Below, one piece after another: positions 3,844-11,914 of a DNA stretch of 64,000 nt. The translations under genes were made by a program, and so were the position numbers. Under the pieces are notes generated by a model. It did no database searches. It saw nothing but the letters and a program-made list of their open reading frames with translations, and was not told where the DNA came from. The DNA lies in the NCBI RefSeq assembly GCF_900066015.1, contig NZ_LN890655.1:62001-126000 (forward strand), given 5' to 3'. Origin of the DNA: Candidatus Promineifilum breve (GTDB taxonomy: Bacteria; Chloroflexota; Anaerolineae; Promineifilales; Promineifilaceae). How positions within the stretch are numbered: position 1 is the stretch's first letter; each line of letters starts with the position of its first letter.

Positions 3844-6822
3844 TCAGCCCGACGGTGGCGGCGGGATGCGCTCAATCGAGGCCGCCGTCGGCAGCCAAAC
3901 CGTTTGCAAGAGTTCGTCGGCCGGGTCCGGCCCCTCGGCCCAGACGGCGATTTCCGTCTCGCCCTCCAGCCGGCTGAGCAACAACCCGGCCACGTTAGCC
4001 CCGTCGGCGTCGGTATAGCGGAAATCGTTCCGCTCCCAGAGATGTCCGCCGTAGAAGAGGCGTTGCGGTTCGTCGGCGGTGAAGCCGGCCACGCCCTCGG
4101 CCGCCGTCTGCAACAACCCGGTCATGGCCTCGGCCGGTGTTCGCCCGCCGGGCTGGATGCGCACGGCCACGAAAGTCCGCGCGTCGGCGGCGAAACGATG
4201 CCAGCTATTGAAGTCCTGATAGGAATAGCCGGCCGGATAGCTGAGGCGAAAATCGGCCACGTTCAGCGCCGCCCAACGCTCCGGCCCAAACCCCAACCGC
4301 TGCGGCAGAAATTGCCACGTGGCGGCAATCGTCCCGATGGTCGCCAGCGTCGCCGTCTCCTGCTCGCGGGGCGCGTCCAGATCGACCACGTAGCCGACGC
4401 CATCCTTCAGGAAGGTCAGGAACATGCCTGTCCGCGCCCCTTGCTCGGCGCTGTCGTAGCCGTAGGCGGTGCGCAGCGCGGGAACCGCTTCGGCGCCGAC
4501 GGTTGTGGGTTCTTGCAGCAGGATACTCACCTCGCCGAAGGTGGTCAGGACTTCGGTTTGCAGGGCGGCCAGGTCGGCCGTCCAGCCGGGATAATAGCGG
4601 ATCTGCATCTGCGCTGTGCCGCTGATATTGCTGGTGAAGGTCACATCTTCCTGCGGCACGGGCGGCAACCAGTCGGCCGGATAGAGGAACTGGGCGTTAT
4701 TGTCGGCATCGACGAAGGCGCGAAAGCCGGTCGCGGCCCCGGCCGGATCGATAGCCAACGGCTGGACGGCCTGCACGCTCGCTTCCGTCAACGGCTGCGC
4801 CCGGACGCCGACGGTATAGCGGCCGGCGGGCAGCGCTCGCGTACTGCGATAAATGGCCGGCGCGTCGTCGAAAACCAGGGCCACACCCGGCTCGGTGGTC
4901 TGCGCGCCGTCGGGCTGGACAAATATCGTGTCGGCCTGAAAGACATCGCCGGCCAGCGGGGCTAACTCCCCGACGAGGCGCGTCCCGCTGCTGACATCGG
5001 CCGTGGCCCACAGCCGTTGCGACGCGGCATCGATCTCGTTAAAGACGGCCGTGACGACCATCCCCCCTTCGCCGCCCCCCGGCCGAATTCGCCCGACGGC
5101 GATCGATTGTGAGCCGAAGGACGACACATCGACCGGCCGCAAGACGGCAAAATCCCCTGCTCCGGCGGCGTCGGCCAGGTAGGCCGCCGTGGCGTCCCAG
5201 ATGATGAGCGACTCGTGCCGGCCGTCGCGCCAGAGTGTGGCGCTGGTTCCGCCCGCCAGCGTCAGCGGCGCCGGCGCCACCGGCTGGTATTGGCGCAACA
5301 CCCTCCGGCCGTCGGCCGCTTCCTGATCGGCCACCAGGGCTACCTCGTCCAGCCGTTGGCCGATTACCTCGGCGCGCATCAGCGCCGGGTTGGCGATGTG
5401 GATGGGGTCGCGCGGGGTGCTCTCGACGATGACACGCGGCGCGTCGATTGTGGCCGGTTCAGCCGCGGCCACATAGGCCGCCCACGACGGCAAGCGGGTG
5501 ACCTGATTGTAGAGGGGGTCGAATGCCGCCGGCGTGGCCGGCCAATAGATCGCCACGCCGCGCCCGGCCGGCAGCCCCAGCCCATGATCGTAGGCCACCA
5601 GCGACTCGGTCACCGCGCTGCTGACGGCCGTGGCCGCGGTTTGCAGCTCGCCCGCCGGGGCCGATTCGGCGATGATGGCCGCCGCTTGCAGCAGATCGAT
5701 GGCGGCGATGGCCGGGTCGCCGGCGGCCGCGCCATAGCGTTGCGCGCCGCGCCGCCCCTCGGCGGCGATGGCCCCGTGGAGCGCCGGATCGTTGCCCAAT
5801 GTCAGGGCCAGCGTCTCCACCGCCGCCGTCACCACCGGCACGCGGGCCAGATCGACCGCGGCCAGCCCCACAAATTCGTCGCCGGCCACCTGCCGCTGAT
5901 AATTGACGTAGGCCGTCACCAGATCGCCGGCCAACTGCCGCCCATCGACCAGCGGATCGGCGTTGAGTTGGGTCAGGACGGCGGTGTAATCCCAGCCCGA
6001 CCCCGGCATCAACCCGGCCGAGGCCACGGCAAACGCGGCGTGGGACTGCATGGTCTGCAACACGTCGAGATCGCTCATCAGACCGGCCGTAAAGGCGATG
6101 ACTTCCAGCCGCGCCCCGGTCTGCCCGGCGGCGTTGGCCAGGGCCTGGTCGATGTCGGTCAGGCTGAGGTGATCGCTTTCGCCCGTCACGCCGATGGTCG
6201 TGTCGAAGCAGCAGCCGCGCCAGCCGCCGCCGAAATCGCCCAGGAACAGGGCGTAGCGGTTGGCCGGATAGGTGGCAATGGCCCAGGACACAAACTCGGC
6301 CAGGGCCACCGGGTCGCCCATGTTGACCTCGCCCAGCGTCGCCACGGCTTCCGAGGCCAACTGGGCCGTGTCGGCGTCCGGGTTGACTTTGTAGCGCACG
6401 GCCTCGGCCGTCGCCGCCGGCCCATCGGGCGGCCAATCGATCTGGGCGATGACCTGCACCTGATCCGTCGGCCCGGCGGCTTCCATCTCATTCAGGTCAT
6501 CCCAGACGAACCCGGCCCGACCGGCTGTGTCGGCCGAAGCGTAGTAGAGGATCGTCCAGGCCGGGCGGGCCGCGTCGTAGGTCGGCGTCGGCAGCAGAAT
6601 GGGCGCGTCGGCCGTCACCAATGGCTGTTCCGGCCCGGCCGTCGCCGCCGCGCCGATGCCCGGCGACTCGGCCGTGACGCCCAGCAGCAGCGGCGTCGCC
6701 GGCGGCGGCTGGGGCGTCAGTTGGTCCAGTCGCCCGCCGGGATCGCAGGCCACCAGGCCCAGCAATAGCCCCATCGTCACCACGACCCAATTGCATTGTT
6801 GATGAAGTTTCCCTCTGGTCAT
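3844..6822 (-). CDS. C11 clostripain-like lipoprotein, catalytic residues lost
   Basis: This 992-residue protein starts at the ATG 6820-6822, giving an N-region, a hydrophobic stretch and the lipobox LVAC, so it should be a membrane-anchored lipoprotein. A proline-rich linker leads to a C11-peptidase-like domain beginning WTILYYASAD and containing LFLGDFGGGW and TAGLM. Active family members read DHG(G)GW and DxCLM, so both catalytic His and Cys are replaced here (Phe codon 6232-6234, Gly codon 6082-6084). The C-terminal half has beta-rich modules of unknown role, two of them containing similar YPAxW/YPAGY motifs. It is probably a pseudo-peptidase scaffold or binding protein. Neighbours give no clue. 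Confidence 0.78.
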   Translation of the reverse strand: MTRGKLHQQCNWVVVTMGLLLGLVACDPGGRLDQLTPQPPPATPLLLGVTAESPGIGAAATAGPEQPLVTADAPILLPTPTYDAARPAWTILYYASADTAGRAGFVWDDLNEMEAAGPTDQVQVIAQIDWPPDGPAATAEAVRYKVNPDADTAQLASEAVATLGEVNMGDPVALAEFVSWAIATYPANRYALFLGDFGGGWRGCCFDTTIGVTGESDHLSLTDIDQALANAAGQTGARLEVIAFTAGLMSDLDVLQTMQSHAAFAVASAGLMPGSGWDYTAVLTQLNADPLVDGRQLAGDLVTAYVNYQRQVAGDEFVGLAAVDLARVPVVTAAVETLALTLGNDPALHGAIAAEGRRGAQRYGAAAGDPAIAAIDLLQAAAIIAESAPAGELQTAATAVSSAVTESLVAYDHGLGLPAGRGVAIYWPATPAAFDPLYNQVTRLPSWAAYVAAAEPATIDAPRVIVESTPRDPIHIANPALMRAEVIGQRLDEVALVADQEAADGRRVLRQYQPVAPAPLTLAGGTSATLWRDGRHESLIIWDATAAYLADAAGAGDFAVLRPVDVSSFGSQSIAVGRIRPGGGEGGMVVTAVFNEIDAASQRLWATADVSSGTRLVGELAPLAGDVFQADTIFVQPDGAQTTEPGVALVFDDAPAIYRSTRALPAGRYTVGVRAQPLTEASVQAVQPLAIDPAGAATGFRAFVDADNNAQFLYPADWLPPVPQEDVTFTSNISGTAQMQIRYYPGWTADLAALQTEVLTTFGEVSILLQEPTTVGAEAVPALRTAYGYDSAEQGARTGMFLTFLKDGVGYVVDLDAPREQETATLATIGTIAATWQFLPQRLGFGPERWAALNVADFRLSYPAGYSYQDFNSWHRFAADARTFVAVRIQPGGRTPAEAMTGLLQTAAEGVAGFTADEPQRLFYGGHLWERNDFRYTDADGANVAGLLLSRLEGETEIAVWAEGPDPADELLQTVWLPTAASIERIPPPPSG

Positions 6823-8059: not shown

Positions 8060-10855
8060 CTAGGGGCTGATCGCCTGTGCCAGGACAGCGCGGCCGATCG
8101 CTTCCGCCGCCGCGACATTATCCATCCCTTCCAACGCCAACGCGATCACGTACCGCGGGTTACCGGCCGGGGCAAAGGCCAGAACCCAGGCCGTGCGGCT
8201 ATTCTGCGGCCCGGATAGGGCCGTGACGGTGAATTCGGCCACGTCGTCAGTCACCGGCCAATCGCTACGAACGGCGGCGGCCACCGACGAAGACACAGCC
8301 GCCGCTGAGGCCGCCGACGCGCCGGGCAGCTGGGTTTCCCATTCGCCGCCGGGCAAGGCTAATGCCTCAACCAGACGCACCGCCGGCAACTGCCCATCAC
8401 CGGCCAACGCCGCCGTCGCCAGCGCCGCCTGCAACGGCGTCACCGTGAGCGCCTCTTGCCCGATGGCCGCCAGCCCGGGATCGGCAATCGTCGCCGTGCT
8501 GCCCTCGGTCGGGATGGGCAGCCCCGGCGCGCTGTGCAGGCCAAAGCGGGCGAAGGCTTCATCCAGGGCTGTCGCGCCGAGCCGGTTGCCGAGGGTTTGG
8601 AGCGGGGCCGGGCAGCGCAAGACCGCCATATCGGCCCAGGTATAGGCGCGGCCGCCCACGGCACGGGGCGTGGCGCAGCGCAATACCTGCCCGTTGAGGG
8701 TGACCGGCAGGTGGGCATCGGCCAACGGGTCGGCGAGGCGCAACTCGCCGGTATCGACCGCCGCGGCGGTGATGAACGGCTGCACGATCAACCCCGGCTG
8801 ATAGAGGCCCTGGGCCGCCCGGTTGACCAATGGGCCGGGGTCGGCCGCCGCCAAGGTTTCAAATTCCTCATCGATGCGGTTGGGATCGTAGCCCGGCGCG
8901 CTGACCATCGCTAACACGTCGGCCACGGGCAGGCCGCCGGCTGTCGTCACTTCCAGCAGCACCAGGCCGCCGGCCGCGCCCGACTCGGCCATGAGTGTCG
9001 TGGCCGCCTCTTGCAGTCCGGCATCCAGCGTCAGACGCACGTCCCCGCCACGCGGCGCAATGTGCGCCAGCCGCCGGATGGCTTCGGGCCAGAACGCCTC
9101 GCTCCGGCCGCGCAGATGGCTGTCGAACGCTTCTTCGCTGCCCGCCGCGCCGAAACGCAGGCTGTAGTAGCCGACGGCCGGGCCGCCGCCGCCGGCCAAC
9201 GGATAGTGGCGCGTCAGGTTGTCGGGCGAGCCAACCGATTCGGCCAGCACCGCGTCGTCGCGGGCCAGGATGCGGCCCCGGTTCACCCGACGTTCAGCCT
9301 CGACCAGCCGCGGGTTATCCTCGCGCGCCGCCAGCGCCTCGGCCCGCACCACGCCCCAATAGGCCAGGGCCAGGGCGATGATGAAATAGACCACCAGAAA
9401 CGCGCTCCCCAGACGACCGACGCGCCGGGCCAGGTGGCGATCGGCCGGCGGCACGAGGGGCACCGGCTCGGCGGCGGCCGACAGCCACAACAACAAGCCG
9501 ACGGCCACACTGCTGACGAGCAGCGAACTGCCGCCATAGCTGACGAAGGGCAGGGTAATACCGGTCAATGGCAGCAGCCGCGTACTGCCGCCCATAATAA
9601 GGAAGGCCTGCACGCTGAGCAGCGTGACCAGCCCGGCGGCCAGATAGGCGTGGAAGAAGTTCGGCCGCGCGCCGCGAATGCTGTGGACGGCCACGCGCAG
9701 GCCGCGCACGGCCAGCAGCGCGTAGGCGGCGACGACGGTCAGACTGCCGATTAGCCCCCACTCCTCGGCGATGGCCGCCAGGGCAAAATCGGAATGCACG
9801 ACGGGAATATAGTCGGGGAAGCCTTGGCCGATGCCCTGCCCCAGGATGCCCCCGGCGGCCTGGGCATAAAGCGCCTGTACGATCTGGTAGGCCCGGTCGC
9901 TGACGTTGGGCCAGGGGTTGATCCAGCTCAGCACGCGCCCGGCGACCACGGTGTCGAAGGCGAAGAAAGCGATGACCCCGGCCAGCAACAACATGACCAG
10001 CCCGCTGAAGACATACAATCGCTCGCCCGTCGCCACATAAACCAGCCCGACGAAGACGATGAAGAACAGCGCCGCCGCCCCCAAATCCTGTTGCCAGACG
10101 AGCAACAACATCGTGAAGCCCCACATCAACAGCAAGGGGCCGAGAAAGGGCAAATGTCGCCGGAAGGCCGTGCCCATACCCCGGGTTGATGGTTCCGCCC
10201 GCGCTGCCTGGCGGCGGTAGTGGTGCAGCGGTTCCTGCTCGGTGAAATAGCTCGCCAGAAAGACCACGAGCACGAGCTTCAGCAATTCCGACGGCTGGAA
10301 ATAGACCAGACCCAGAAAAGGAAACGGGATGGGCAGCCACAACGCCGCGCCGCTGCCGCTGGGGTTGACGCCAAAGGCCAGCGTAATCGCCAGCAACACC
10401 AGCCCGCCCAACAGAATCAAGTAACGGTAACGGCGCAAGGGTTGCAGCGTCTCGGGCAGAATGGCGACGGCCAGCAAGGCCACCGTCGCCAGCGAAAACC
10501 ACAATGTCTGTCGCCCCAGAAAGTTGGGGGCCAACCTGTCTTGCAGCAGTAAGCCCCAGCCGCTCAGCAGGGCGAAAACGGGCAACAGGAAGGGATCGCG
10601 CCGCGGGCGAAAGGTGCGCAGCGCGCCGTGGGCCAGCGCGATGACCACCAGCCAGACGAGCGGCGCGGCCAGATGTGCCCAGCGCAGCCCCGCCGTGCGC
10701 ACCAGGCTATAGGCGATGGCGTTGCCCAATACGAAGAGGATCGCCGCCAGCAGCAGGAGCGCCTCGCGCCCGTCGCGCCGGCGGTCGCGATCATCGAGCC
10801 ACTGGCTGACCCACCGCCGCCAGGCCTGCCGACCGGAACGCAGAACGGCCATCAA
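8060..10855 (-). CDS. FtsW/RodA-type peptidoglycan polymerase fused to a degenerate PBP module
   Basis: Residues 1-480 form a SEDS glycosyltransferase with ten or more membrane segments. The polymerase Asp is kept in WQQDLG, and the signature GITLPFVSYGGSSLL is clear. After another membrane helix comes a class B penicillin-binding module: the pedestal motif NRGRILARDDAVLAES, then a transpeptidase-like fold to residue 931. The three active-site motifs are gone. YQPGLIVQ (residues 685-692) replaces YPPGSxxK, RCP replaces SxN, and ALSGPQ (about 879-884) replaces KTG. The polymerase should work; the transpeptidase should not. The ATG overlaps the MTA phosphorylase stop by four bases. See the findings for interpretation. 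Confidence 0.88.
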   Translation of the reverse strand: MMAVLRSGRQAWRRWVSQWLDDRDRRRDGREALLLLAAILFVLGNAIAYSLVRTAGLRWAHLAAPLVWLVVIALAHGALRTFRPRRDPFLLPVFALLSGWGLLLQDRLAPNFLGRQTLWFSLATVALLAVAILPETLQPLRRYRYLILLGGLVLLAITLAFGVNPSGSGAALWLPIPFPFLGLVYFQPSELLKLVLVVFLASYFTEQEPLHHYRRQAARAEPSTRGMGTAFRRHLPFLGPLLLMWGFTMLLLVWQQDLGAAALFFIVFVGLVYVATGERLYVFSGLVMLLLAGVIAFFAFDTVVAGRVLSWINPWPNVSDRAYQIVQALYAQAAGGILGQGIGQGFPDYIPVVHSDFALAAIAEEWGLIGSLTVVAAYALLAVRGLRVAVHSIRGARPNFFHAYLAAGLVTLLSVQAFLIMGGSTRLLPLTGITLPFVSYGGSSLLVSSVAVGLLLWLSAAAEPVPLVPPADRHLARRVGRLGSAFLVVYFIIALALAYWGVVRAEALAAREDNPRLVEAERRVNRGRILARDDAVLAESVGSPDNLTRHYPLAGGGGPAVGYYSLRFGAAGSEEAFDSHLRGRSEAFWPEAIRRLAHIAPRGGDVRLTLDAGLQEAATTLMAESGAAGGLVLLEVTTAGGLPVADVLAMVSAPGYDPNRIDEEFETLAAADPGPLVNRAAQGLYQPGLIVQPFITAAAVDTGELRLADPLADAHLPVTLNGQVLRCATPRAVGGRAYTWADMAVLRCPAPLQTLGNRLGATALDEAFARFGLHSAPGLPIPTEGSTATIADPGLAAIGQEALTVTPLQAALATAALAGDGQLPAVRLVEALALPGGEWETQLPGASAASAAAVSSSVAAAVRSDWPVTDDVAEFTVTALSGPQNSRTAWVLAFAPAGNPRYVIALALEGMDNVAAAEAIGRAVLAQAISP

Positions 10856-11721
10856 TCGAAGTACTTGCCGATGATCGGCTCTAGCTCGGCCAGCCGCGAC
10901 GGGACAACGCGGTCACGGTGGGTGATCAGTGCGTCGCGCAGGGCGCTATGGGCGGCGAACTCCCCGGCCCACTGGTCGAAATCGGCCACCAGGCGGCTGA
11001 TGGCGGCCTGGGCCGTGGCTGTATTGGCCATCAGGGTGCGCACCACCAGTTCCGTGGTCACGTGGGCCTCGCTCTCGTGCCAACAGTCGTAATCGGTGAC
11101 GTGGGCCATGCAGGCGTAGGCGATCTCGGCCTCGGCCGCCAGAAAGGCTTCCGGGCTGGTGGTCATGCCGATGATGCTCATGCCCCATTGGCGAAACAGG
11201 TCCGACTCGGCGCGGGTACTGAAGCGCGGCCCCTCGACGGTGATGAACGCGCCGCCCCGGTGGACAACGCCGCCGGCCGCGGCCGTCGCCTGGGCCAGCG
11301 CCGCGCTCATTTCGCCGCTGAACGGATGGGCCGCGGCCAGGTGGGCCACGATGCCCCGGCCGAAGAAGCTGCGGTCGCGCTGCCCCTTGGTAAAGTCGAA
11401 CAGTTGGTCGGGCACGACGATCTCGCCCGGTGCAAAATCCTCGCGCAGTGACCCGCAGGCGCTAACCGAAATGATGTATTTCACGCCAAGCGTCTTCAGG
11501 GCGAAAATGTTGGCCCGGTAGGGCACTTCGCTGGGGGTCAGGGTGTGGCCGCGGCCGTGGCGGGGCAGAAAGGCCACCCGCCGCCCGTGGAGCGTCCCCA
11601 CCGTGACCACATCCGACGGATTGCCGAAGGGCGTATCCAGTTCGACCGTTTCGATCTCGGTCAATTCCGCCATGTGATACAGACCGCTGCCGCCGATGAC
11701 GGCCAACTCGATCGCAGACAT
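10852..11721 (-). CDS. mtnP: S-methyl-5'-thioadenosine phosphorylase
   Basis: This 289-residue enzyme should phosphorolyse MTA to adenine and 5-methylthioribose-1-phosphate in methionine salvage. It shows AVIGGSGLY at the N-terminus (phosphate loop), FLPRHGRGH, PYRANIFALK, the MTAP-type SACGSLRE, and MTTSPEAFLAAEAEI near the base-binding region. The length is normal for the family. The start at 11719-11721 has a strong GAGGAG seven bases upstream, so the 25 extra upstream codons are leader. The stop overlaps the start of the FtsW fusion gene. Confidence 0.93.
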   Translation of the reverse strand: MSAIELAVIGGSGLYHMAELTEIETVELDTPFGNPSDVVTVGTLHGRRVAFLPRHGRGHTLTPSEVPYRANIFALKTLGVKYIISVSACGSLREDFAPGEIVVPDQLFDFTKGQRDRSFFGRGIVAHLAAAHPFSGEMSAALAQATAAAGGVVHRGGAFITVEGPRFSTRAESDLFRQWGMSIIGMTTSPEAFLAAEAEIAYACMAHVTDYDCWHESEAHVTTELVVRTLMANTATAQAAISRLVADFDQWAGEFAAHSALRDALITHRDRVVPSRLAELEPIIGKYFD

Positions 11722-11914
11722 AAAAGACTCCTCAAAACAGTTACAGGTTGATGACATGGGCCGGGTCTTATGTGCCGGTGTATCCCTTTCTCCCATCCGA
11801 TTTTATATCACAATACTACCCATGGGTCGCCCGCAAGTGGGGTTAGATCAGCCCGATCCCGAAGATGGTGTGAGCTATGGGTATTCAATTTCCTCTTACA
11901 ACTTCTGTTGAATA

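Follow-up and report, generated by a model that had tools for sequence, protein, structure and literature searches.

Gene, domains and surroundings

The window, by which we mean the whole stretch of 64,000 nucleotides that was analysed, carries a gene in which a SEDS (RodA/FtsW-type) glycosyltransferase is fused to a penicillin-binding protein (PBP) (Table 1). The reading frame, of 931 residues, lies as described in an earlier note on this DNA, and Pfam resolves its product into FTSW_RODA_SPOVE (residues 112-460, E 1.3e-67, 228.8 bits with the cut-off at 26.4), PBP_dimer_2 (PF21922; residues 526-606, E 1.6e-10) and Transpeptidase (from residue 646, E 1.5e-17). The likelier start is the ATG at 10852, which gives a protein of 930 residues and whose A also ends the stop codon of the upstream gene (TGATG, an overlap of one base); homologous starts are seen in the related loci L058/L060. 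As judged from hydropathy and an AlphaFold model, the SEDS half contains many hydrophobic helices, and the membrane anchor, pedestal and transpeptidase fold of a class B PBP (bPBP) are all present according to Pfam and the same model. The PBP_dimer_2 pedestal places the PBP half in the PbpA subfamily, whereas the other class B PBPs of the genome carry PF03717 (PBP_dimer).

Table 1. Coordinates of the fusion gene, its domains and motifs, and the adjoining gene, numbered in the window
Feature	Position	Strand	Basis or remark
mtnP-like phosphorylase gene (PNP_UDP_1)	10852..11796	(-)	directly upstream; stop overlaps fusion start
SEDS-PBP fusion gene	8060..10855	(-)	931 codons counted from TTG 10855
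SEDS (RodA/FtsW-type) glycosyltransferase domain, residues 112-460	9476..10522	(-)	PF01098
WQQD, residues 254-257	10085..10096	(-)	conserved here; taken for the catalytic motif in the earlier note
Codon of Asp356 in VVHSDF, SEDS catalytic Asp	9788..9790	(-)	alignment to 8tj3, P. aeruginosa FtsW
PBP transmembrane helix, residues ~482-503	9347..9412	(-)	hydropathy; AlphaFold helix 473-503
Pedestal/PBP_dimer_2 domain, residues 524-606, with NRGRILARDD	9038..9286	(-)	PF21922
Pseudo-transpeptidase domain, residues 607-930	8066..9037	(-)	fold kept, catalysis evidently lost; Pfam and structure alignment
SxxK site, now LIVQ (689-692)	8780..8791	(-)	alignment to solved PBPs
Cys727	8675..8677	(-)	paired with Cys748 in every dead copy having both columns; predicted disulfide
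SxN site, now RCP (747-749), Cys748 inside	8609..8617	(-)	SSN/SCN of solved PBPs aligned there
KTG site, now FTV (875-877)	8225..8233	(-)	alignment

The surroundings that are typical of PbpA, with a SEDS gene directly upstream and fha genes in the operon, are found in three related loci. An fhaA-fhaB-mtnP-rodA-pbpA operon is common to L170, in which the Ser/Lys pair of the SxxK motif is present (hereafter active or intact), and to L092 and L136, in which it is absent (hereafter dead); for the fusion gene of the window, mtnP is the sole neighbour that remains of this operon. The actinobacterial rodA-pbpA operon likewise includes fha genes. In active and dead loci alike (the window, L092, L136 and L170), the gene immediately upstream of the SEDS gene is the mtnP-like one, which places a putative methylthioadenosine salvage gene beside cell-wall genes.

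The genome of the window contains three SEDS genes, and exactly three were found in every one of 12 Chloroflexota genomes, of which 10 carry a dead copy and 2 an intact one. It also has seven PF00905 loci, among which the search for other class B PBPs that the earlier note had proposed recovered an intact FtsI-like protein, an intact PBP2-like protein and one further class B PBP. The seven loci also include two class A PBPs whose transpeptidase motifs are intact, and three YkuD proteins are encoded elsewhere in the genome.

Active sites and predicted structure

For the PBP half, the motifs were placed by alignment to the solved PBPs 4mnr, 4jbf and M. tuberculosis PbpA (3un7). The PGSTFK of the solved proteins aligns with PGLIVQ, in which Leu689 replaces the Ser and Gln692 the Lys of SxxK, and the columns of KTG are closely followed by ALSG (residues 879-882). 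The earlier note had named the same two residues, had read SxN as RCP and had described KTG as lost; the alignment bears out all three readings and fixes the KTG site at residues 875-877. No second SxxK or KTG came into register under careful alignment, and SxxK was present at the site in none of the 106 dead copies described below. The pedestal motif was also correctly reported as kept, R526 and G527 being invariant in dead and active copies. Taken together, the aligned residues give good support to the conclusion that transpeptidase catalysis has been lost in the PBP half of the fusion.

Chance or a sequencing error as the origin of these replacements was excluded by 105 further distinct homologues without the same motifs, and a sequencing error or a pseudogene also by the breadth of the dead clade together with dN/dS.

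For the SEDS half, V-H-S-D356 lines up with the HTD found in solved SEDS proteins, making D356 the counterpart of D262 in E. coli RodA and of D297 in E. coli FtsW, which sits within H295-T296-D297 (PMC8765783). The catalytic Asp is intact, as had been claimed, but its earlier placement at D257 of WQQDLG did not hold: the residue is Asn in the genome's own canonical RodA and Ala in its own FtsW, by which this motif is ruled out as the catalytic one. The catalytic Asp (HxD, extracellular loop 4) was present in 102 of the 102 dead copies examined, and of the SEDS positions without variation in the active relatives, among them D356, nearly all vary little or not at all in the dead copies. The Asp of QxDLG is invariant in the third SEDS family; in the canonical RodA and FtsW of the genome (L008, L009) its place is taken by Asn and Ala, respectively.

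The AlphaFold2 model of the window protein, which was built with 58 sequences, exhibited a pLDDT of 91.1, a pTM of 0.85 and a complete transpeptidase fold. Residues 524-930 of the model superimposed on M. tuberculosis PbpA with Z 45.6 and an rmsd of 2.0 over 350 residues (VIA-align), and the best Foldseek matches were also of the PbpA type. For L136, a shortened homologue from Anaerolineaceae, the model (pLDDT 88.8) matched PbpA with Z 36.8 over 329 residues, and its SEDS half matched FtsW with Z 35.2. These models indicate that the transpeptidase fold is retained despite the loss of catalysis.

Distribution, selection and history

The sample consisted of 80 named Chloroflexota loci, nearly all from Anaerolineae and including three from Promineifilum near the window, and of a search of 301 genomes of the phylum. 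The scan of named loci gave no match with a single-protein query, and the 80 loci were obtained with an alignment query. Among 139 distinct Chloroflexota PBP halves, 106 lacked the Ser/Lys pair of SxxK and 33 had it, and the absence first noted in the window is thereby shared by 105 further copies. The dead copies came nearly all from Anaerolineae; the intact ones came mostly from other classes, with representatives within class Anaerolineae in the families f24, f26 and f109, and showed the identical SEDS-PBP gene order where the pair is adjacent. In related genomes, the SEDS-PBP pair occurs either fused or as adjacent genes. An orthologue was found in about 78 of the 199 genomes of the class sample, among the matches listed, and 19 loci fetched later comprised 15 dead and 4 intact copies with the same motif types as before.

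The 33 intact copies all have the Ser and Lys of SxxK and the Ser and Asn of SxN, with KTG in 28 and KSG in 5. The dead copies have SxN in 0 of 106, keep the Ser at position 689 in 10, and include a single Lys at position 692, which stands without the Ser. The residues found instead vary widely (L, A, T, G, D and others at 689; Q, E, G, R and others at 692), and Anaerolineaceae and some other lineages have a deletion of the helical part around SxN, which lies mid-way in the transpeptidase domain. A KTG string lies near the end in 4 of the 106, in motif context only in L048. In this locus (4628-5767, reverse strand), the PBP is split from the SEDS protein, and the region from SxxK to SxN is replaced by a repeat rich in E, L and G while KTG is kept; L048 is perhaps an intermediate.

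The estimated dN/dS values for close dead pairs were 0.02-0.13 for the SEDS part, 0.04-0.24 for the pedestal and 0.07-0.28 for the pseudo-transpeptidase, indicating purifying selection on all parts, in fused and split versions alike, with the transpeptidase part evolving fastest. At matched SEDS identity, the ratio of transpeptidase to pedestal identity was 1.07-1.24 for active pairs and 0.75-0.89 for dead pairs, and the pedestal identity of the dead pairs was similar or higher in most bins.

On a quick SEDS tree of 138 rows, the dead/active state changed once. On a careful tree of 74 rows it changed twice, because L112, from outside class Anaerolineae, is grouped with the active genes; support was 98/89 for the branch that sets this group apart from the remaining dead copies, and a single dead clade was not rejected by the AU test (p 0.206). 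These trees suggest one main loss of catalysis and possibly a second one. The fused/split state changed 12 times on the 138-row tree, the calls being taken from stop-to-stop reading frames in draft genomes, in which some "split" pairs are one in-frame stop apart. The fusion is not the key feature because of these repeated changes, and its novelty is ruled out by them and by one active copy that is also fused (L164/L180). This last copy (genome G190), from another class and with an intact active site, represents an independent fusion.

Proposed role of the pseudo-transpeptidase

In the known systems, contact of the pedestal with extracellular loop 4 governs SEDS activity (PMC8078798). B. subtilis cannot do without PBP2b, although it can do without the catalysis of this protein, and the SpoVD S311A mutant, which is catalytically dead, is functional only with its SEDS partner (PMC12713402); inactive S. 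aureus PBP1 retains a regulatory role (PMC9426605). Against this background, our best explanation, to which we assign a probability of about 0.68, is that the fusion is a third SEDS polymerase whose bPBP now serves as a non-catalytic activator or scaffold, with cross-linking supplied in trans. The protein would be the third SEDS-bPBP synthase of Chloroflexota and kin of the RodA-PbpA pair of Actinobacteria, and its transpeptidase active site would have been lost in an ancestor of a large Anaerolineae clade. By still binding extracellular loop 4 in the SEDS half, the pedestal may switch on, or hold open, the polymerase, which would produce uncross-linked glycan strands. Candidates for their cross-linking in trans would be the intact FtsI, PBP2, the further class B PBP, the class A PBPs or L,D-transpeptidases. 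The pseudo-transpeptidase, probably pinned by a disulfide, would act as a folded lever or docking surface and would not be acylatable by beta-lactams. By a narrower margin of belief, we also favour a stronger form, namely that this is a natural polymerase-only SEDS synthase across a large clade, in which the pseudoenzyme PBP is an obligatory allosteric activator, strand initiation is genetically uncoupled from cross-linking, and there is no direct inhibition by beta-lactams.

The earlier note had proposed that the fusion may retain its PBP only as a built-in activator. The loss of catalysis and the retention of pedestal and polymerase held, and they hold across the clade, but "only" is too strong because the transpeptidase remnant is under purifying selection (0.07-0.28) and its fold is kept. 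Since the remnant is constrained and whole in most copies, a role restricted to activation by the pedestal does not explain everything, and the remnant probably does something beyond activation.

One candidate for this is that the main function of the pseudo-transpeptidase is binding or docking, of stem peptides or nascent glycan or of an intact transpeptidase or regulator that it recruits, with activation secondary. The domain is present and folded in nearly all copies, with dN/dS below 0.3; R511, D513 and R582 show a conservation among the dead copies that the active ones lack, and YQPG is strongly conserved. Cys727 and Cys748 were both present in 79 of the 79 dead copies having those columns, compared with 4 of 33 active copies, and 72 of the dead set have exactly two ectodomain Cys, which points to a predicted Cys727-Cys748 disulfide beside the former SxN site. 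However, the deletion around SxN, in lineages that keep the pedestal and the SEDS part, would destroy a peptide-binding cleft, and within the dead copies it is the transpeptidase that evolves fastest. We regard this explanation as unlikely, though it is the strongest of the alternatives.

Far less probable is that the SEDS half makes another glycan, or is a mere scaffold or transporter, the loss of cross-linking reflecting a changed substrate: a third SEDS protein beside FtsW and RodA would be free to change, but the near-invariance in dead copies of positions invariant in active ones, D356 included, and an operon identical to that of the active relatives argue against it. That the transpeptidase is still active through a rearranged site, as the intact fold and the Ser at position 689 in 10 of the 106 dead copies might allow, is very improbable given that no dead copy has SxxK at the site or SxN, that the single Lys692 stands without Ser, that the replacements are heterogeneous and that 20 dead copies lack the conserved Cys. 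A decaying gene heading for loss would account for the faster evolution of the transpeptidase part and the deletions in some lineages, but is scarcely credible given that the frames are open throughout a large clade, that no part has a dN/dS anywhere near 1 and that the SEDS part is very constrained.

The preferred reading, of a polymerase with a non-catalytic PBP partner, has its closest counterpart in the RodA-PbpA pair of Actinobacteria (M. tuberculosis PbpA, 3lo7/3un7), with which the fusion shares the PBP_dimer_2 pedestal and the closest solved fold (Z 45.6), and its family the SEDS gene directly before the PBP gene and, in the operon of the relatives, FhaA and a second FHA protein. In contrast to the Anaerolineae protein, which lacks all three motifs and whose halves are often fused, M. 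tuberculosis PbpA is an active, beta-lactam-binding transpeptidase; here, moreover, mtnP lies between the fha genes and rodA, and no PstP or PknB was seen adjoining. With RodA-PBP2 and FtsW-FtsI (6pl5, 8tj3, 8bh1), the fusion has in common the SEDS fold, the catalytic Asp in loop 4, the PBP transmembrane helix, the pedestal and the transpeptidase fold, whereas the bPBPs of those pairs are active enzymes on separate polypeptides.

The engineered dead bPBPs (B. subtilis PBP2b, C. difficile SpoVD S311A and S. aureus PBP1*) likewise represent a transpeptidase-dead bPBP that supports its SEDS partner, and in the B. subtilis and C. difficile mutants another bPBP supplies the cross-linking. These are laboratory mutants, whereas the dead state in Anaerolineae arose naturally, is old and has been conserved throughout a large clade. 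In the open-access literature we found neither a naturally transpeptidase-dead SEDS partner nor the Anaerolineae fusion described, an absence that is weak evidence.

The separability of the activator and transpeptidase roles of bPBPs has so far been studied by point mutants. The Anaerolineae proteins offer a natural, long-lived case in which the activator part outlasted catalysis, which was evidently lost. Active sister genes are available as a reference, and the dead pair is carried by a cultured species, Bellilinea caldifistulae GOMI-1 (L128); lineages with a shrinking transpeptidase domain reveal which parts such a partner can spare. Activation of the polymerase seems here to have been uncoupled by nature from wall cross-linking, and the result, if true, would be a penicillin-blind SEDS synthase.

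The fused copies also resemble class A PBPs in carrying a polymerase and a PBP module on one polypeptide, although class A PBPs combine a GT51 polymerase with an active transpeptidase and the window fusion a SEDS polymerase with an apparently dead one. Among the class A PBP homologues, L007 of the same genome (872 amino acids, G000:C1 at about 2,471,979) is seemingly dead in both halves. The Glu of the glycosyltransferase motif EDxxF is Val or Ala in L007, L233, L234 and L235 and falls in a gap in L236, and SxxK, SxN and KTG are gone in L007 and L233-L236 and kept in L237-L242 from other genomes. The L007 group appears to be a second conserved pseudo-PBP in Anaerolineae.
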